Origin: an uncultured Planctomycetaceae bacterium
Lineage (GTDB): Bacteria; Planctomycetota; Planctomycetia; Planctomycetales; Planctomycetaceae
Assembly (NCBI GenBank): GCA_913031625.1
Contig: CAJWGB010000008.1
Location: 1-55,470 of the forward strand
Length of the DNA stretch: 55,470 bases
Reading direction: 5' to 3'
The position numbers were made by a program, and so were the translations under genes. This document shows positions 25,115 to 33,136 of the stretch, one piece after another. The notes beneath the pieces are model-generated. The model worked only from the letters and a program-made list of their open reading frames with translations, was not told the origin of the DNA and did not search any database. Numbering within the stretch: the stretch's first letter is position 1; each line of letters begins with the position of its first letter.

Positions 25115-28100
25115 CTAGCGTTTTCGCTGATTGTCCGGATGCTCATCGATCAGCTGCTGGTAAACCCGTCGAGCGTGATCGTAGGCTGCCTTTGCGTCAG
25201 CCTGTTCATCAGCTGCGTACGTTGGCTGCTTTGACTTCCAGCACTGTTCCACTCCGGCGAGACACCATCGAGCACTATCAACTGTCCCCCGAACAGGTTT
25301 GTCACCGACAACGACATACACAGGGTTCGTGTGAGCATTCGGGAATACTCGAATTGTGGCCCACCCGCTCTGTTCGAACTGATGTTCAAATTCCACTTTG
25401 CGAATCGAGCCATCGGCTTTCATGCTTTTGCTGGCCACTGGGTAGCCATTCACGATGAGTTCAACCAGCACGTACCCCACCTGATCGATCAACGCTGCTC
25501 CGTCCGTTGAGAGACGCACGCGTCCCGGCCTGCCGAGGCGCAGTTCGCTGCCATCGACTCCAACATCCACATGCCTGTCCGTCTTGATTGCGTGGGCCTG
25601 AAAATCCAGCAGGTGACACCGGCCGTCGCTCACATAGCTGCGCCCCGCGCCGATCGATCGGACCCATTTGTCGAACGTGAGACGTCCGTCTACCTTTGCA
25701 TAGACGCGACCAATGCCAACTCGTTCACCACTCATGCACGGAAAGTCCGTTTCGCCGCTGGCTGCAACTCGAAACCCACAGTTGAGCACGTGGTACCACA
25801 TGTTCCACTCGGCCACTCTTTCTGTATTCATCGTTGAGATGAAATCCACAGCGGGAACGGGCTTGCCATCTGGTCCCGGCACATTGTGAGTCACATCCAT
25901 CACAAACTCGTTGGCTCCGATCCCGTCGTAGGCGGGCACAAAGAAGTTTGGAATCGAATTCAACCCGTCTTTGCTGGGAGTATCCGGCAGGCGACCGATC
26001 GTGTGAGTCAATCCAATCGAAGAATGCGCCGGACCGCAGACTGCTCCCTGACGCTTAGCCCACTTCAGCGTATTCAATCCCAGTGTGGGCCAGTGATCCT
26101 TTGACTCGCCTCCAGGGTAAATCTGTTCTTTCAGATTGAGCAGATTCAGATGACCGGACGCATGAGACCCGAAGCCGGAAACCTCCACATCGTAGCGCAG
26201 CGTGTATGGATATTTTGACTGCTCCGCGACTTCCCCGGTGAAGAATCGTTTCTGAAAGTCAAAACATGGTCCCCATGTGAGGCAACAGCCAACTTTCAGG
26301 TCCTCGCCCATGATGTGCCTGATCATGTCCGCCGGCTCCACCCCCTGGGTTGGATTCTGATAATGGAGACAACCCGCAGCATGAATGTGATGATCCCCCG
26401 ACCACCATCCCGCTCGAGATGGATCAATCCAGCGATCGACTCGATAAACCAGTTCCGCCGGCTCATCACCCACTTTCAGTTCTTTGGTCTCACCGATTGT
26501 CTCGGGCCCCCGGGAACACCTGATCGTGTAGTCACCAGGCGGCAGAGAAACGGACTCACCGTCACCGCGATAGATATGCCGCTGAAAGAAGAAGTCCGGA
26601 GCAAGCCGCTTCGATTGCGTGGGATAAATCTGACCGGCGTCATCACGGATCTCAAAGCGCGCAAACGCTGGCAAGCCGTCCGCATCGATGACTCGAAACG
26701 TCACCTTTGACGCTTCCCTGCAATCGAAGTCCAGATTCAGTCTGGCTCGGTTGGCGATCTGGCCGGCCGAGACCAGATCAATCCAGTCAATTCTCATCGT
26801 TCCGGGTTTGACCAACGGGTCGAGGCGAACGCCGGCAAGCTCTCCTTCGGAATGAAAAGGCACTTCGTACAGATGTTCCTTCCCGGGTTCCAGCAGAAAA
26901 TTGGTCTGCCGCTGCCCGGTTGGTTGAGGAATCTCTTTCGTCCACCAGAACAACTGCCCCACACCTTCAACGTCAGTCTTCGCCCAGAACCGCAACATCA
27001 TGGGGCCGGAGGGCGACTGGACCTCAGCTCCCATGAATGGATCGTTGCCGGTAGAAGTTATGTTGAGAGACCCCTCATCCATCTCTATCTCAACCTGATT
27101 CATTTCAGACCAGCCGTCCTTGCCTTCGTCGAACCTCCACTCACGAATAAGTGCACCTCCCTCGTCGGTACCAGCGCTAACACCAAACTCGAGCAGTCCC
27201 TGTTTGCGGCCGGGATCGCGGCTGTAGATCTGTACGATGCGATATTCGAGTTCCAGCCCGCTCAGGTCAGCTTTAAGAGGTCGTCCTTCGAATGATGACA
27301 ACTGCATCCAGCGCGATTTTACCTGATCGGCAGGAGCGTGCGGCAGTGGCTGAGCATTCGGGCTGGTGATCTCAAGTCGCTTTGTGTGACCAGGACGGTT
27401 GATCACTTTAATGAGGAATGTCCGCCAGCCCTGCTCCAGCAATTCCGAAGCTGCCTTGCCCCGTGTGACAGCAGGAGGCCCCGTCCGGCGGAGCGAAACC
27501 GCAGCCAGGCACAGGGGATCCAGAAGTTTCTGAATGCGCCCGGCCAATTGTTTCGGATGATCCGTTGATCGAAGTTTTTTCAGTTCATCGGTCACCTGCG
27601 TCGGAAGTGGACTGCCAATATAGTCCATTGCATCGATGAGGCGTTGAGTCGACGCCAACAGGGGCTGTATCTCGACCGCTGAGACCTGAGGCAGCCGAGA
27701 TGCAGAAGCTGACGTGGATGGTATGGAGTTGGCGTCTTCATCCTCAGCAGCAGCCGCGTCAACTCGTGTCTTCCAGAAGAGGCGAGCATTTTCGTGAGGC
27801 TCAAGAACAGATCGCAGTTCCCGCTCATCGTTGACCGTCGCTCGTATTCGATCGATTCGTTCTTCGACCCAGTCAAGGAAGAACTGAGCCGAGCTGCGGC
27901 TCACTCTCAGTTCGCCATCCGACGCTGCGACGTACCATGGAGCCGTCGATGCGAAGCGAAAAGTGTGGTCAACATCTGAAATGGATCGCACAAGAAACCA
28001 CCCAGGCCCTTCAAGCGTCAACCGTGCCCGAAGGTTCTGTGAAGTGTCACCTGTGCAGCTGATCCGCTGCGCGATCTTTCCATTTTGAATGACCTCAATC

Positions 28101-29269
28101 TCCGAGACAGGGCTGGACGACACGAGCGAAATGTTGAGGTCAACCTGTGTTCCACCTGCCGATTTAAACTCATAGCCTGGCGGATGTTCATTTGCTGAAA
28201 CACTGAGTAATGGACCGTTGGTTACGAAGCAGCGTCCCTTTGCAAGCCCCTGGAACCACGATTCAGGAGTCAGCTTCTCTTCGCCGAGATGGACATACAC
28301 CCGGTTGTACCCTACGGGATTCGGAAGCACGCCCGAGGCGCTGCCCGCGGACGGCGGGATTTTCAAACCGGCATCGAGCGCGTGATAATAGATCTCCTGC
28401 GTCCAGAATCCGTTGCCACGCGGCGCAGGCAAGCGGCCTGCATTCCGGGGCCGGCCCCAGGCCTCGCTCTCAAACATCTGGCTGCGGCACATGTGGTTGT
28501 TGGCCAGACCAATAGAGTTCATTTGCCCGGACGCCAGCCATGTCGGAACGTCCCACCAGAACGGTTTCTCGATATCGATCCACACGTTGGGGTTGAGGCC
28601 ATGCGCTTCGCCCACAAACTTCATCGGCGACGGAAACTCTCTGCTTTTGACGCTCAGGTTCAGCGGAGTGTCGAGCCCAAAGTACAACAGAGCGCCCCCT
28701 TCCCGTTCATCTTCTCCTGCACAAACCTGATAGACACGATGGCCGTCAAACGTCTTTGTCGTCTGTTCGACGGGCGGAACGTTGCCTCCTCGGGCGTTCC
28801 ACCAGTCAATGACCGGAGCAAAGTCCAGGTCTTCTGCCCGCATCAGCAGCTCAATATCTTTCGCGGGTCGGTGAACGTGGAGATCTCCGCTGTACCATCC
28901 ATTCTGGCGGAGGGAGGAGATTCTTCTGAGCGTCTCTTCAACCTTCTGCCCATCGTCGCGAAGGCTCAGTGTCCCGGTAACGGGCAGATACTCTGGCCCC
29001 CGCTCGATTTCGTACTCGTAGTCGCCCGTCGGAAGTTTGAGGACTGCCTTACCCGGACAGACAAAGTGGTCCGACCAGAATGGCAGGCCTTCCGGCCGCT
29101 GAACCTCACCTCGCTGGTTCCTGAGGTGAACCCGACAGGGAATCAGACTGCCCTGTTCGTCATCAACCCGAATCTCAAGACTCTCATCGGCCACAGCCCT
29201 CGGACTCAGTGCCAACGCCAGAACCAGAATCACACAGGACACAAGGAAGTCTGCACACTGTCGAGGCAT
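25115..29269 (-). CDS. Very large secreted protein with two CehA/McbA-type PHP metallohydrolase modules
   Basis: The 1384-residue protein has a signal peptide (MPRQCADFLVSCVILVLALALSPRAVA) and two related halves. Each half starts with a beta-rich domain ending in an x-GDYEYEI/x-GDYTIRC strand, followed by a metal-type H-x-H: SGDLHVH (H131/H133) and SGDHHIH (about H961/H963). These match the first metal motif of the PHP fold in CehA/McbA-like hydrolases. Between them lie a helical segment (about 490-590) and a jelly-roll-like region (about 690-800). The second half has more family features (GAVCGPAHSSIG, SGETDFPCMSGERVG). The ATG at 29269 has GGAG eight bases upstream. Substrate unknown; phosphoester or carbamate hydrolysis fits the family. 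Confidence 0.8.
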   Translation of the reverse strand: MPRQCADFLVSCVILVLALALSPRAVADESLEIRVDDEQGSLIPCRVHLRNQRGEVQRPEGLPFWSDHFVCPGKAVLKLPTGDYEYEIERGPEYLPVTGTLSLRDDGQKVEETLRRISSLRQNGWYSGDLHVHRPAKDIELLMRAEDLDFAPVIDWWNARGGNVPPVEQTTKTFDGHRVYQVCAGEDEREGGALLYFGLDTPLNLSVKSREFPSPMKFVGEAHGLNPNVWIDIEKPFWWDVPTWLASGQMNSIGLANNHMCRSQMFESEAWGRPRNAGRLPAPRGNGFWTQEIYYHALDAGLKIPPSAGSASGVLPNPVGYNRVYVHLGEEKLTPESWFQGLAKGRCFVTNGPLLSVSANEHPPGYEFKSAGGTQVDLNISLVSSSPVSEIEVIQNGKIAQRISCTGDTSQNLRARLTLEGPGWFLVRSISDVDHTFRFASTAPWYVAASDGELRVSRSSAQFFLDWVEERIDRIRATVNDERELRSVLEPHENARLFWKTRVDAAAAEDEDANSIPSTSASASRLPQVSAVEIQPLLASTQRLIDAMDYIGSPLPTQVTDELKKLRSTDHPKQLAGRIQKLLDPLCLAAVSLRRTGPPAVTRGKAASELLEQGWRTFLIKVINRPGHTKRLEITSPNAQPLPHAPADQVKSRWMQLSSFEGRPLKADLSGLELEYRIVQIYSRDPGRKQGLLEFGVSAGTDEGGALIREWRFDEGKDGWSEMNQVEIEMDEGSLNITSTGNDPFMGAEVQSPSGPMMLRFWAKTDVEGVGQLFWWTKEIPQPTGQRQTNFLLEPGKEHLYEVPFHSEGELAGVRLDPLVKPGTMRIDWIDLVSAGQIANRARLNLDFDCREASKVTFRVIDADGLPAFARFEIRDDAGQIYPTQSKRLAPDFFFQRHIYRGDGESVSLPPGDYTIRCSRGPETIGETKELKVGDEPAELVYRVDRWIDPSRAGWWSGDHHIHAAGCLHYQNPTQGVEPADMIRHIMGEDLKVGCCLTWGPCFDFQKRFFTGEVAEQSKYPYTLRYDVEVSGFGSHASGHLNLLNLKEQIYPGGESKDHWPTLGLNTLKWAKRQGAVCGPAHSSIGLTHTIGRLPDTPSKDGLNSIPNFFVPAYDGIGANEFVMDVTHNVPGPDGKPVPAVDFISTMNTERVAEWNMWYHVLNCGFRVAASGETDFPCMSGERVGIGRVYAKVDGRLTFDKWVRSIGAGRSYVSDGRCHLLDFQAHAIKTDRHVDVGVDGSELRLGRPGRVRLSTDGAALIDQVGYVLVELIVNGYPVASKSMKADGSIRKVEFEHQFEQSGWATIRVFPNAHTNPVYVVVGDKPVRGTVDSARWCLAGVEQCWKSKQPTYAADEQADAKAAYDHARRVYQQLIDEHPDNQRKR

Positions 29270-29406
29270 GAGTTTTCTCCAACCCGGAACTACACCTGGC
29301 ACCAGACAATGCAGCACTGTCTTCGACCAGACTCAAGCATATCGACTCCGACCAGCGCATGCATCGGAAGCGCAAAGCGGCTTCAGAGAGGGCTCTCAGC
29401 TCTCAG

Positions 29407-29721
29407 TCAGCGAACAGCTTCACGGCGGTAAAGCCCACCGCGTGGGACTCCCGGACGGATCCCTTCGGGGCCTGATTGCATGCCGTGCAGCAACCGCAGT
29501 TCTGCGGCTCGCCGAGCCGAATTCCGCGGGCGATCATAGTCGCGAGGTCGTAGTCCCAGTTCCGGTCCAAGATCCGGAACCGGCAAAGGATCCTGAATCG
29601 CAAATGCTCGCTTCTCAGCCATCGGATGAGCAGGATACGCAACAGGCAGCCTTGAGAACTGAGGCGTCGTACACCCAGTCATCATGAGGCACAGAGCGAG
29701 CAGCAGCGCAGCCCGAAGCAT
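29407..29721 (-). CDS. Small lipoprotein, function unknown
   Basis: About 104 residues: a signal peptide (MLRAALLLALCLMM) ends in the lipobox MTGC, so the mature protein should be lipid-anchored. The rest is rich in Pro, Arg and Leu, with DLGPELGLRPRDYDRPRNSARRAAELR and an MQSGPEGIRPG ending that looks like short planctomycete lipoproteins. No catalytic motif is seen. It follows the HTTM gene after 52 bases on the same strand and is probably the last gene of that unit. An in-frame ATG at 29769 would extend it; the ATG at 29721 puts the signal peptide first. Confidence 0.6.
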   Translation of the reverse strand: MLRAALLLALCLMMTGCTTPQFSRLPVAYPAHPMAEKRAFAIQDPLPVPDLGPELGLRPRDYDRPRNSARRAAELRLLHGMQSGPEGIRPGVPRGGLYRREAVR

Positions 29722-29773
29722 TTTCACTGAGGAGCCGTGATGGAGAGTTTGTTGGTGCAAGATTCCCATCCCG

Positions 29774-31294
29774 TCAGTTCGTCAGAACACCTTCTTTGAG
29801 AATCAGATCTGGCGGCGTCCCGGTCACCCTGAATCCGCGACGGTAGACCTCATTGCGTCCGCTTCGCAATATCATCTGATATTGCCCGGGGAGCAGGTTT
29901 GATCCGATCGTGTACACGAAGTTGTACCGGAGCATGTCTCGAGTCACGATCTCAGTGGAGTGTTCGATCACGTGATCCTCGGTATCCATAAGAACACACT
30001 CGACCACCATGTCCTCGTGGGGAGGATTAAGATTGCACTGAGCAATCATCAGTTCACCGTAGGTGAATTCGGTCCGACGGTTGGCAAGCTGATTGCCGAT
30101 CATGACCGTTCCGATGTCAAAGCTGAAGAACTTGTCCTTTTCACGGACTTCAGCGGCTCCGTTGATCATGTGCGAAGCCCGCTCTGTGTCCATCTCTGTC
30201 AGCCTCATCTTTCCGGAGGCTGAGACCCCATAAATGTTGAACAGACGCTCGCCCTCAGTCATTGCCACTGAGGCTACGGCCAACAGCAGTCCCCATGTGA
30301 CAAGAGCAGGTGACCACGACGGGATTCCGGCAACTGTCTTCTCAAATTGAGCACCAGCGGCCGCAGTGAGTCGAGCAACGGGTTGAGTTGCCCGCCAGCG
30401 CCGCAGAGTGCTGCGGATCCGAATGAAGTCTTCTTCCGTGATAAACGCCAGATATCCGGAAATGCAGATCGTCGGAAAGATGTATAACCCCAGCGTGACC
30501 CAGGTCATAAAGTGAAACATCACTCCAAGTCCGATCATCAGGACCCGAGTTCGCTTCTGGAAGACCAGGAATGCAAACAGCATCTCCCAGACGACTGCAC
30601 AGTACGCACTTACAGGCAGAATCCATGACCAGAGTGCCATCTGCTCGCCAACGGGATTGTTGTAGTTCCAGTTGCTGAGCATCCAGTATCGCATCTGCTC
30701 TCCGGTAAAGAACTCGGCCGTCTGAATCTTGGTCACAGCAGCGCCGAAGTACACGAAACAGAACAGCAGTTGAATCAGTCGCGCTGCCCACACCGCGGTC
30801 TTCGGTGGCGGCTGAGGCAAAACGTTCTTTCGGCGATTCAGAATCGCGTCAACTGACCAGATCATCCCTGACTGAGAAACGGTAAGCAGGATCAGGAGAT
30901 GAGTTCCGATGACGCTGTACTTGGTCATCGTGCCGATCGCATCCAGCAGGTTGAAGTAAACATACAGTGGTGTGGCGATGAGGAACGACAAACGAGTGCG
31001 AAACCCCATCGAGGCAAACAGCAGACACAGCAGCATTACGCCATACAGCGGAACTGCAATTGCCGGAGAGAAGACCGGCAGGACGTTTCCGTTGCCGAAG
31101 AGTTCGAACAGCTGAGTCGGAGTGCCGTCTGATGTAAACAGTTCTCGCACGCGGGGCAGCCGAAACCACATTGGAACCGAAACAGCCAGCGGAACCACGA
31201 TGCGAGCCAGCGCGAGCCCAAACGGTGTCTCTTCACGAAAGAAGAAGTCGTTCAACAGATTCGATTGGGGTGTTTTCTTCATTTCTGCATCCAT
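29774..31294 (-). CDS. HTTM-domain multipass membrane protein (gamma-carboxylase-related)
   Basis: The 506-residue protein has an HTTM domain (horizontally transferred transmembrane domain, PF05090), the membrane part shared with vitamin K-dependent gamma-glutamyl carboxylase. About eight hydrophobic helices lie in the first 350 residues, including FGLALARIVVPLAVSVPMWF, the FLIATPLYVYFNLLDAIGTMTKYSVIGTHLLILLT block and WAARLIQLLFCFVYFGAAVTKI. The C-terminal 130 residues are soluble and beta-rich. It lacks the full carboxylase catalytic domain, so enzyme activity is doubtful. It sits 30 bases after the previous gene in a cluster headed by hemP, which suggests an iron- or haem-related role; that is inference. 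Confidence 0.85.
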   Translation of the reverse strand: MDAEMKKTPQSNLLNDFFFREETPFGLALARIVVPLAVSVPMWFRLPRVRELFTSDGTPTQLFELFGNGNVLPVFSPAIAVPLYGVMLLCLLFASMGFRTRLSFLIATPLYVYFNLLDAIGTMTKYSVIGTHLLILLTVSQSGMIWSVDAILNRRKNVLPQPPPKTAVWAARLIQLLFCFVYFGAAVTKIQTAEFFTGEQMRYWMLSNWNYNNPVGEQMALWSWILPVSAYCAVVWEMLFAFLVFQKRTRVLMIGLGVMFHFMTWVTLGLYIFPTICISGYLAFITEEDFIRIRSTLRRWRATQPVARLTAAAGAQFEKTVAGIPSWSPALVTWGLLLAVASVAMTEGERLFNIYGVSASGKMRLTEMDTERASHMINGAAEVREKDKFFSFDIGTVMIGNQLANRRTEFTYGELMIAQCNLNPPHEDMVVECVLMDTEDHVIEHSTEIVTRDMLRYNFVYTIGSNLLPGQYQMILRSGRNEVYRRGFRVTGTPPDLILKEGVLTN

Positions 31295-31324
31295 TCAGAA
31301 GCTGAAATCTGTTCCAGTCTCAAC

Positions 31325-31960
31325 TCAGTTTGTGCTCAGCCCAATGGCAGACTCATTCTGCGTTCGTGGGTTGAAGAATGTGTTATACATGCTGGTTGAA
31401 CTGCTGGCCTGTTGCCTGATGCGAGGGTTGTCGAATGTCGACGCCATCCGCTGGCGCGCGAACCAGTCCTGATACGACTGCACAGGCTGCCCGTTTGCAG
31501 CACACACGGCTCTCAGGTTGAAGTAGGAGACTTTGTCCTGCTCCTGCTCGAAATATTCACTGTAGAGTTTCGGTGGCAGGTTGTACTGCTTGGGCCAGAC
31601 CTCCTGAACAATGAACACTCGGTCAATTCGTTCGTGATCTGTGTGGGACAGGATGTTCTCGACATGTCGCGACAGCATGTGATTTGTATGGTCATATTGA
31701 ATTCGCCCACGGTGGCCAAAGGGTCGAAACTCGCCCCATGGCTCTTTCACTTCGTAGTACTTCCCGCTGCTGCCTTCGGCAATAATATGGGTTTCCTGAT
31801 CCCATGCACTCCAGCCGCAGAACATGTCCCACACGACGAAGTAGCTCAGCGTGTTGCCGCAGATTCCGACGCGGAGTGCATGGCCGACAATTCCAGCCCC
31901 CATGCAGCAGGCCCAGGCCGCGATAAATGCGCAGGCACCAATCTTTTTCCAGCGAGACAT
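31325..31960 (-). CDS. Signal-anchored hypothetical protein linked to the HTTM gene
   Basis: About 211 residues. A hydrophobic N-terminal segment (MSRWKKIGACAFIAAWACCMGAGIVGHAL) acts as a signal anchor. The rest is soluble and aromatic/His-rich, with five cysteines near the membrane (ACC, GICG, FCGW) and His clusters (FGHRGRIQYDHTNHMLSRHVENILSHTDHERID). Many His and Cys outside the membrane could bind metal or haem, but no known motif is present. The ATG at 31960 has an AAGG site seven bases upstream; an ATG at 31975 is the alternative. It is 30 bases before the HTTM gene, so the two are probably a functional pair. Confidence 0.7.
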   Translation of the reverse strand: MSRWKKIGACAFIAAWACCMGAGIVGHALRVGICGNTLSYFVVWDMFCGWSAWDQETHIIAEGSSGKYYEVKEPWGEFRPFGHRGRIQYDHTNHMLSRHVENILSHTDHERIDRVFIVQEVWPKQYNLPPKLYSEYFEQEQDKVSYFNLRAVCAANGQPVQSYQDWFARQRMASTFDNPRIRQQASSSTSMYNTFFNPRTQNESAIGLSTN

Positions 31961-32135
31961 GACCCAACCTTCCATGGAATGGGCGTGAATGAGAGACGTG
32001 AGTGAGAGGAGGAAAGGGGACTGAGAAATCCCCGCCGGCAGAATGGTCTGAAGACGCCGCGTAGAAGCGGAATCTGCCGGATATTCCCAAACAGGTCAAT
32101 ATGAAGTTGGCCGGGGAGACGGACTCAGGCTGACG

Positions 32136-32303
32136 TCAGCGATTGAGGATCAGACCACCGTTTCGCGTGGTCTTTAACCGGTACTCTTTTCCTTTGTACT
32201 GGATAATGACTTCCGTCTGCCCCCTGGCAATTTCAGCAAAGTCAACAATGGGTGGCGACGGTCGGGCTGACGTCTGAGACGTGTCACTGGGTGGGTGAGA
32301 CAT
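32136..32303 (-). CDS. hemP: Hemin uptake protein HemP (55 residues)
   Basis: The short frame reads MSHPPSDTSQT, then a proline-rich linker, then VDFAEIARGQTEVIIQYKGK followed by EYRLKTTRNGGLILNR. This ending is the HemP signature (x-E-V-x-I-x-H/Y-x-G-x-x-Y-x-L-R/K-x-T-R-x-G-K/G-L-I-L). HemP is a small cytoplasmic protein, normally iron-repressed, that supports haem uptake or synthesis in several bacteria. Length (55) is typical. A Fur-box-like palindrome lies 85 bases upstream. It heads a same-strand series with the signal-anchored protein, the HTTM protein and a lipoprotein, although 175 bases separate it from the next gene. No TonB-dependent haem receptor is in the window. Confidence 0.85.
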   Translation of the reverse strand: MSHPPSDTSQTSARPSPPIVDFAEIARGQTEVIIQYKGKEYRLKTTRNGGLILNR

Positions 32304-32387
32304 TTTTCCGAGTCATAACTTCGGAACTGTGCAGGTTGGAAAAGGCTGCACTGTCTTTCTCCCCTTTGCGAATACGGCTAGATTACT

Positions 32388-32406
32388 GATACTGAGTCTC
32401 AGTGTC
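32388..32406 (-). promoter_or_regulatory. Fur-box-like operator upstream of hemP
   Basis: GATACTGAGTCTCAGTGTC is a 9-1-9 inverted repeat with one mismatched pair. It has the architecture of the classical Fur box and agrees with it at 13 of 19 positions by my count. It lies 85 bases before the hemP start, where an iron-dependent repressor would act. Confidence 0.65.
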
Positions 32407-32460
32407 AAGTTTGTTGCCCGGATGCCGCCCCTGACTGAGGCTGGTCTCGCAGGCCCCTGA

Positions 32461-33033
32461 CTAGACGTCTACCACGATGGTCATGGAGCCTGTCTCGGAA
32501 TCCTCCGTAATCTGACGGATCTCACCGATCTGGGATGCCTTCAGTCGCAGAGCTGCTGCTGTTGCTCGGTTGACGGCCCTGTCGAGCTCCGCTTGTACAT
32601 CCCGCAGATGCCCTTCCAGCTCATCTGTGGCCTGCTGACGCAGCTTTTCATTCTCCCGGTCAGCGGCCGCCTCAAGGTGTTTCTGAGCCTCCTCTCGAAG
32701 ACGCTCTTCCGTGCGGATACGACCTGCTTCCCCAAAATCTTCGTCCCCCCATCCGTGGTGCGTTTCTTCGAGCTGAACTTCTTCGCTGAGGTCTGCAGAT
32801 ACTGTCACTTCATCCGTTTCGGTGTTCACCGAAATTCGGACGTTTCCGTCCTGCCGCACTATGGACCCATCACGCTCCTCAAAACCCAGTTCCACGAGCT
32901 CTGAGGTCAGGAGGGCAGTCATGTCCTTTTGAGGAAGAATCTCCAGCAGTTGCAACTGTGTGCTAACATGATCGGACCCGCGAATGACGGTTCGCAGTGA
33001 TTCAGAAACGCTGATGCGGTAGGCTCGACTCAT
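32461..33033 (-). CDS. Coiled-coil hypothetical protein, possibly like a 'ternary system' accessory protein
   Basis: About 190 soluble residues. The N-terminal 90 residues form an alpha/beta domain (MSRAYRISVSESLR..., LEILPQKDMTALLTSELVELGF, VRISVNTETDEVTVSADL). Then comes a long, charged coiled coil (about 100-165) and a short beta ending. The N-terminal pattern reminds me of the small accessory domains of the MoxR/FtsH-vWA 'ternary systems', but this is a memory of family style, and no MoxR, vWA or FtsH gene is nearby. Start: ATG at 33033; the frame extends to a TTG at 33048. It faces away from the DUF218 gene. Confidence 0.65.
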   Translation of the reverse strand: MSRAYRISVSESLRTVIRGSDHVSTQLQLLEILPQKDMTALLTSELVELGFEERDGSIVRQDGNVRISVNTETDEVTVSADLSEEVQLEETHHGWGDEDFGEAGRIRTEERLREEAQKHLEAAADRENEKLRQQATDELEGHLRDVQAELDRAVNRATAAALRLKASQIGEIRQITEDSETGSMTIVVDV

Positions 33034-33136
33034 CGCGGTATCTCTCAAAGGCGGCAGTAGGACCGAATCATACGACCTGTGCCATCAAATCAGTAGAGAG
33101 CATCTTCCCAACTTCGACTGAGAACTGGACCTTTCC

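Follow-up and report, generated by a model that had tools for sequence, protein, structure and literature searches.

Evidence for two units at a planctomycete locus: hemP with a Fur-type box and a neighbouring gene pair encoding a probable two-subunit relative of gamma-glutamyl carboxylase

The locus considered here raises the question of whether a hemP gene and the genes following it on the same strand form one iron-regulated system or whether they are separate units that lie side by side. It is found at positions 29,407 to 32,406 of a stretch of 55,470 nucleotides from an uncultured Planctomycetaceae bacterium (contig CAJWGB010000008.1, positions 1 to 55,470 of the forward strand, assembly GCA_913031625.1; the whole of this stretch is referred to as the window), and in the order of transcription, on the - strand, it comprises a Fur-type box, hemP, the gene for a 211-residue protein (protein A), the gene for an HTTM protein and an open reading frame (ORF) of 120 amino acids (aa). 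The original prediction, made from the letters of the window, regarded all of these as a possible iron-regulated unit, and the gene positions, order, strand and distances that it gave were all found as claimed. However, comparison with related genomes leads us to favour, on balance, a different interpretation, in which there are two units, viz. a hemP gene under the presumed control of Fur, and a membrane enzyme akin to gamma-glutamyl carboxylase (GGCX), of which protein A and the HTTM protein would each be one subunit.

The separation of the two units is seen in a comparison set of 101 genomes of the same family, in which hemP occurs in 69 genomes and protein A, whose conservation the original prediction had proposed to check, in 90 (in G051 only as the divergent form A' described below). 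The linkage of hemP with the HTTM pair in planctomycete relatives, whose absence the original prediction had itself named as grounds for giving up the single unit, is lacking. In none of the 80 named protein A loci (with flanks of 6 kb at most, or less where a contig ends, and overlapping in part with the genomes of the 41-locus set used below) was a hemP match present near the protein A gene. The two genes are on one contig in 17 genomes counted by eye, the window included, and outside the window their closest spacing is about 18 kb (G013), followed by 85 kb (G050), 105 kb (G001) and larger distances; in the remaining genomes with both genes they are on different contigs, which alone does not exclude linkage. 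The score of the box upstream of the protein A gene is 11 in the window and 11–15 of 19 positions in relatives, with 1 of the 41 loci reaching 15. Due to the genes being unlinked in relatives and no box above background being present ahead of protein A, an iron-regulated hemP-HTTM unit was rejected; as judged from these gene neighbourhoods, hemP with its box and the A-HTTM pair are two neighbouring units.

For the neighbours of protein A, 40 loci from relatives and the window were used, and 36 of these 41 entered the alignments of protein A and of the HTTM protein. In all 41 the protein A gene is followed on the same strand by an HTTM gene (the partner in L110 is a 240-aa piece, probably due to a broken frame), and the pairing is seen in 79 of the 80 named records, the exception ending at a contig edge. 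The two genes are 30 bases apart in the window, and 175 bases lie between hemP and the protein A gene. No third gene family is constant with the pair, the commonest family of same-strand ORFs after the HTTM gene being found in 7 of the 41 loci. The 120-aa ORF, which the original prediction had taken for a lipoprotein, has no relative in the 40 relatives' loci or in the 80 named loci and was for this reason rejected as a third member of the pair; neither it nor protein A has a Pfam or NCBIfam match. When the profile of protein A was applied to a wider draw of 294 planctomycete genomes (up to 10 candidates scored per genome), 14 of them matched, all belonging to the window's own family, and three more genomes of that family were listed without a match. 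In the 101 genomes of the family there were also 11 weak matches of a second class, nine of which were fetched (G077:C34 and G014:C313 were left out); the nine loci of this divergent family, A', share the same WDM(F/Y) core, and in seven of them the A' gene is directly before an HTTM gene, with another one being at a contig end. A second, shorter HTTM protein (340 aa) is encoded on contig C80 of the window's own genome (L246), with a thioredoxin-like ORF, recognised by eye, nearby on the other strand. No published description of such an A-HTTM pair was found in a literature search at the listing level, most subscription journals being outside its reach.

The homology of the HTTM protein to gamma-glutamyl carboxylase, an enzyme described as the sole one of its kind in human (PMC12589487), is clear. 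A profile of the 36 aligned HTTM proteins matched GGCX in the PDB with an E value of 6e-7 (hmmsearch), and in a Foldseek search with the AlphaFold2 model of the HTTM protein (predicted local distance difference test score, pLDDT, 86) ranks 1–15 were all GGCX. The alignment of this model to GGCX by VIA-align extends over 295 residues with Z 22.2 and a root-mean-square deviation (rmsd) of 4.0, the best unrelated row having Z 12.0. Thus, both a PF05090 match above the cut-off and the transmembrane fold of GGCX are present, as expected for the HTTM/VKGC superfamily. Further information is provided by planctomycete homologues in which the entire enzyme is in a single chain, viz. the single-chain vitamin K-dependent carboxylases (VKGCs). 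Thirty VKGC loci were returned, of which 27 were used (L265, L271 and L274 were left out) and 26 were compared after L251 was dropped for its length. The HTTM profile matched these 26 proteins with an E value of 3.8e-19; the confident part of this match ends around transmembrane helix (TM) 8, past which the single-chain VKGCs have TM9, a linker and a luminal domain in the same chain. Single-chain VKGC homologues with the luminal domain occur in Planctomycetota, PF22777 being above its cut-off in 37 of 392 planctomycete genomes surveyed, and a genome may contain several of them, as in G042 with five matches. The C-terminal beta sandwich of the HTTM protein matches other beta-sandwich domains, while the GGCX rows for the HTTM model stop at model residue 359.

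Within the shared core, K189 of the HTTM protein falls on K218 of human GGCX, the base described as deprotonating vitamin K hydroquinone (PMC12589487). A lysine is present at this position in all 36 HTTM proteins of the pair, in all 7 of the A'-linked proteins and in all 26 single-chain VKGCs, and the equivalent of the catalytic base is therefore retained; the F286/H287 pair of GGCX is also conserved in the HTTM protein. A different pattern is seen for N159-H160 of GGCX, which are reported to sit at the substrate Glu (PMC12589487). At the second of these two positions, all 43 pair-type proteins (36 of the pair itself and 7 linked to A') have a lysine, whereas N-H is found in 26 of 26 single-chain VKGCs. 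This lysine is K125 in the window, and its register depends on the alignment, as a pairwise alignment to human GGCX places it on N159, one residue off, and a larger alignment on H160. The H160A change in GGCX has been reported to compromise Glu carboxylation (PMC12589487). As the histidine which activates Glu is a lysine in the HTTM protein, ordinary carboxylation of Glu is probably not what takes place in the substrate step; in view of the effect of H160A, a different substrate or a different outcome is suggested by the conservation of this lysine. Further, no match to PF22777 was seen in the 36 A proteins (E<=1), the HTTM protein (E<=0.1) or the window's own genome (E<=0.01). As H160 and PF22777, two defining features, are both lacking, the pair should not be filed as a Glu carboxylase.

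Protein A probably corresponds to the part of a GGCX-like enzyme that comprises TM9, the WDM linker and the luminal domain, split off as a separate protein, as suggested by its modelled structure, a shared motif and its pairing with the HTTM gene. Its model (pLDDT 82, predicted template modelling score, pTM, 0.65) has a single helix at the N-terminus, followed by a mixed domain of small size, and its ten best rows by VIA-align were all GGCX (Z 3.8–4.9), the next unrelated row having Z 3.4. In five of these rows, residues 49–167/176 of protein A are placed on GGCX 402/404–505/512 (rmsd 3.8–4.6); in the five others, in which the helix is included, residues 1–170/181 are placed on GGCX 356–506/515 (rmsd 9.2–9.4). 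If the first five rows are carried five residues N-terminally, the WDM motif of protein A (W44-D45-M46), which is invariant in all 36 A proteins and remains so in all 45 sequences when the A' paralogues are added, falls on W399-D400-M401 of GGCX in two rows and is 1–2 residues away in the others. The order helix, His, W-x-M is also shared with the single-chain bacterial enzymes, the His being 17 residues before the W in 33 of the 36 A proteins and 17–18 before it in 25 of the 28 rows of the VKGC alignment. Sequence search of the PDB with protein A gave nothing (best E 3.7, PrsA), and transthyretin-like rows, obtained with both Foldseek and VIA-align, were read as a common beta arrangement and set aside. 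The many His and Cys residues that the original prediction saw in protein A are indeed there, although they are for the most part not conserved, only C48, H27, H58 and H109 being kept at 80% or more in the 36 aligned relatives, and a His/Cys-rich metal protein was rejected on this account.

When the pair is compared with GGCX, which combines a PF05090 HTTM domain and a PF22777 luminal domain, the likeness lies in the HTTM core fold, the K218 base, the F286/H287 pair and the WDM motif, which is in the part after the HTTM core of GGCX as it is in protein A. However, the pair is encoded by two genes rather than one, the confident homology of its HTTM protein stops around TM8, H160 is replaced by a lysine, protein A is without a PF22777 match and the HTTM subunit has an added beta sandwich. 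The planctomycete single-chain VKGCs, similarly, are homologous to the HTTM protein over TM1–TM8 and have the same lysine, but they possess their own N-H at 159–160 and their own TM9 and luminal domain in the same chain.

Based on these results, the following mechanism can be suggested for the two-subunit enzyme. The HTTM subunit would contribute the quinol-binding helices and the catalytic lysine K189 which, by analogy with GGCX, may deprotonate a reduced naphthoquinone, presumably menaquinol in this bacterium. The reaction of the reduced quinone with O2 would then yield the epoxide, with a strong base being made in the same step. Protein A would, with its WDM linker, seal the active site on the outer side and, with its domain, hold the substrate, a role for which GGCX uses a later portion of its single chain. 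In this scheme, the base-generating half of the pair most likely works like the vitamin K-dependent carboxylase, and the quinol chemistry, the substrate and product, and the formation of a complex by the two proteins are likewise projected from that enzyme. A more specific form of the proposal, in which the pair is a near-core feature of Planctomycetaceae and serves as a two-subunit menaquinol-driven generator of a strong base, with lysine in place of histidine, a substrate other than glutamate and the luminal half as a separate protein, is put forward only tentatively, as we are somewhat more inclined to doubt than to accept it in all its parts. A natural split of this kind, with one subunit for the quinol and the base and another for the luminal part, would mean that the two half-reactions of the carboxylase are genetically separable, and from the change of H160 to K it can be predicted, at the level of a single residue, which relatives do not carboxylate Glu.

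Several observations weigh against this interpretation. When protein A was aligned by hhalign to the luminal domains of 28 VKGCs, the match did not reach significance (P 0.18; P 0.11 with the A' paralogues), and column shuffles reach the A-VKGC score in 36 of 150 cases, in 72 of 100 for the soluble part and in 14 of 100 with the paralogues. The structural Z of 4.9 for protein A is below the best value of 7–8 that the tool gives as typical of models lacking a clear match, all ten GGCX rows come from one and the same protein and hence are not independent, and Foldseek gave no match with E <0.7 for the model of protein A. Due to the profile matches not being significant and the Z score being weak, the identity of protein A is held as probable and not more. 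Further, the helix which the HTTM protein itself has at 325–347 could be TM9, and in the A' family there is one gene, L278 (G032), without an HTTM gene nearby, the sole exception to the pairing that is not at a contig end. No gene family travels together with the A-HTTM pair, and thus no substrate is suggested by its neighbours. Lastly, VKOR, by which the epoxide is recycled in animals, although present in the window's own genome, is found in 37 of the 101 family genomes and does not track the 90 genomes with protein A; it was rejected as a co-occurring partner, and epoxide recycling by VKOR is no general companion of the pair.

In view of these observations, it can be asked whether the HTTM protein is a relative of GGCX while protein A is an unrelated partner or even its substrate, held in the membrane alongside. 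The absence of a significant link between protein A and the VKGCs in the sequence profiles and the low structural Z are in keeping with this, as are three conserved Glu residues of protein A (E62, E110 and E120, each at >=90%), which could be modified. However, the structural ranking, the in-register position of the WDM motif and the point around TM8 at which the confident HTTM homology stops converge on the same stretch of GGCX, and due to this convergence an unrelated partner or substrate is regarded as fairly unlikely.

A second alternative, which we consider improbable, is that the pair resembles SdpA-SdpB of Bacillus subtilis, a pair of membrane proteins required for the maturation of a hydrophobic peptide that is secreted; the HTTM protein would then be the SdpB-like partner. 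The order is the same, as in the Bacillus system also the smaller protein is encoded directly before the HTTM protein (PMC6818787), PF05090 also matches in Bacillus subtilis, and the HTTM protein has a weak match to the SdpB model TIGR04033 (E 2.4e-4, 20.8 bits against a cut-off of 178.4). For the sdpABC paralogue, processing of YitM that depends on YitP-YitO has been suggested (PMC6818787). However, the NCBIfam SdpA model (TIGR04034) is not among the 8 families listed for the 36 A proteins at E<=1 and finds nothing in the window's own genome, whereas the Bacillus subtilis control matches, and with an SdpB score below the cut-off and no SdpA match the pair was not assigned to SdpAB. In addition, no linked gene is conserved that could encode a peptide precursor, the most frequent neighbour family being limited to the few loci noted earlier, and nearly all members of the family have the pair, which is not the distribution of a toxin cassette. 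It should be noted that the SdpAB-like and GGCX-like interpretations are compatible if SdpAB itself is a divided GGCX-like enzyme.

The weakest alternative, viz. that hemP, protein A, the HTTM protein and the lipoprotein are a single haem- or iron-related membrane system under iron control, is extremely improbable and as a conserved unit is already refuted by the comparison of loci, for although all these genes are on the same strand, a Fur-type box is upstream of hemP and no terminator-like site was flagged on the - strand between hemP and protein A, making read-through in this one species possible, the two sets of genes are unlinked in relatives, the region ahead of protein A has a background box score, the lipoprotein is without relatives and the HTTM pair is accounted for by a different chemistry.

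Apart from the two-subunit enzyme, which remains our favoured interpretation of the pair, the locus provides information regarding hemP itself. HemP was identified by a PF10636 match above the cut-off, and the palindrome at 32388–32406, of which 8 of 9 arm pairs match, is 84 bases from the hemP start; no second copy with up to 3 mismatches is present in the window (100 shuffles, mean 0.00). Among 73 hemP matches in the 69 genomes, 51 loci were examined (30 returned, 20 chosen, and the window), and the motif GAYAYTGAGWYTCARTRTC is present with at least 15 of 19 positions, within 400 bases upstream of hemP, in 48 of them, the exceptions being L066, L073 and L081. This motif was drawn up after viewing the hemP upstream regions, and the test was repeated with the window's own 19-mer, for which a best match of at least 14 of 19 was found in 45 of the 50 hemP upstream regions of relatives versus 1 of 40 regions upstream of the protein A gene and 0 of 51 shuffled regions. 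The palindrome noticed by the original prediction, which had named the absence of such a box ahead of hemP orthologues as a point against itself, is thus a conserved feature there. In the window the box extends over the last part of TTGACA and the greater part of the 17-base spacer ahead of TAATCT. Across the 48 aligned sites, the most frequent letters spell TTGACA in the first hexamer and agree with the first two bases of the second; a scan with a generic promoter consensus did not list the hexamer pair of hemP, the second hexamer being too weak. A conserved Fur-type box is therefore present at the likely promoter, as in a Fur regulon. The palindrome was listed as terminator-like on the + strand in a scan, for which the chance expectation was 0.6, but the idea that it terminates the upstream gene was rejected because the flanking genes are both on the - strand, and because in 29 of the 51 loci the box is between hemP and a divergent prepilin-like ORF. 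With a Fur operator over its likely promoter, hemP would be turned on under iron shortage, and both the binding of Fur to the box and the iron response are predictions from these sequences. HemP and Fur have been named as the two known regulators of hemin acquisition (PMC11002078).

A pattern search of the window's own genome, which has two Fur-family genes, gave two further sites with up to 3 mismatches, each having 3. A backwards control pattern matched once in the same genome, which counts against the significance of these sites, as each of them alone could be due to chance. However, one is at about 2267–2288 of contig C218 (L087/L241), beside the gene for a BFD-type [2Fe-2S] protein that is next to a ferritin-like gene, and the other (L084/L240) has a DUF1559 gene on one side and a gene for ExbD on the other. 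The genes bfd, exbD and hemP are classical Fur targets. The prepilin-like ORFs mentioned above start on the opposite strand within 600 nt of hemP, and all 29 loci concerned have the box; examples in which such a gene faces hemP across the box are L223, L224, L225 and L232. Two prepilin-like genes were scanned, one linked to hemP and one at a box of the window's own genome, and both proved to be DUF1559. In some loci a DUF4198 protein comes next; the one that was scanned, at the hemP-linked DUF1559 locus, is DUF4198 with Kelch repeats. Thus, hemP is an ordinary Fur-type gene, whose commonest neighbour in the family is of the DUF1559 type and not an HTTM gene. In its family match and in the box at its promoter it is like other members of the Fur-controlled HemP/HmuP family; however, it differs from them in that the relatives' hemP often faces a DUF1559-type gene and in that the window's genome is without a TonB receptor of the PF00593 type. 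The absence of a TonB receptor, which the original prediction had noted for the locus, holds for the entire assembly (96% complete) as far as can be judged from PF00593, which has 0 matches. The DUF1559, DUF4198 and ExbD genes near Fur-type boxes may represent an uptake system in a genome without PF00593 receptors, and they are candidates for iron uptake in Planctomycetaceae. The comparison also yields a Fur box that can be used in this bacterial family, the member studied here having no TonB-dependent receptor by PF00593.

The positions of the described features, some of the ORF starts being mechanical calls, are listed in Table 1.

Table 1. Features of the hemP and A-HTTM locus, in window coordinates
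Feature	Position	Strand	Remarks
Fur-type operator TTGACACTGAGACTCAGTATCA	32387..32408	-	Upstream of hemP; box kept across hemP loci; Fur binding predicted
Probable hemP promoter	32380..32408	-	TTGACA 32408-32403, 17-nt spacer mostly under the operator, TAATCT 32385-32380
hemP, 55 codons	32136..32303	-	PF10636, 35.4 bits (cut-off 25); single match in the genome
Protein A, 211 aa	31325..31960	-	Alternative start 31975 (216 aa); N-terminal helix and small domain
W44-D45-M46 codons of protein A	31823..31831	-	Proposed equivalent of GGCX W399-D400-M401
HTTM protein, 506 aa	29774..31294	-	PF05090, 75.7 bits (cut-off 27.7); GGCX-like helical core, further helix, C-terminal beta sandwich
K189 codon of the HTTM protein	30728..30730	-	Equivalent to the GGCX catalytic base K218
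K125 codon of the HTTM protein	30920..30922	-	Position of GGCX H160
120-aa ORF with a lipoprotein-like stretch (by eye)	29407-29769	-	

Two further genes on the - strand flank the locus. The gene upstream of the hemP box (32461–33048) matches fvmX5, the FtsH ternary system domain X5 (PF20003, 172.8 bits), and positions 25115–29275 encode a very long metallohydrolase of the CehA/McbA type, 1386 aa from the start used, which matches NF038032 in two stretches.

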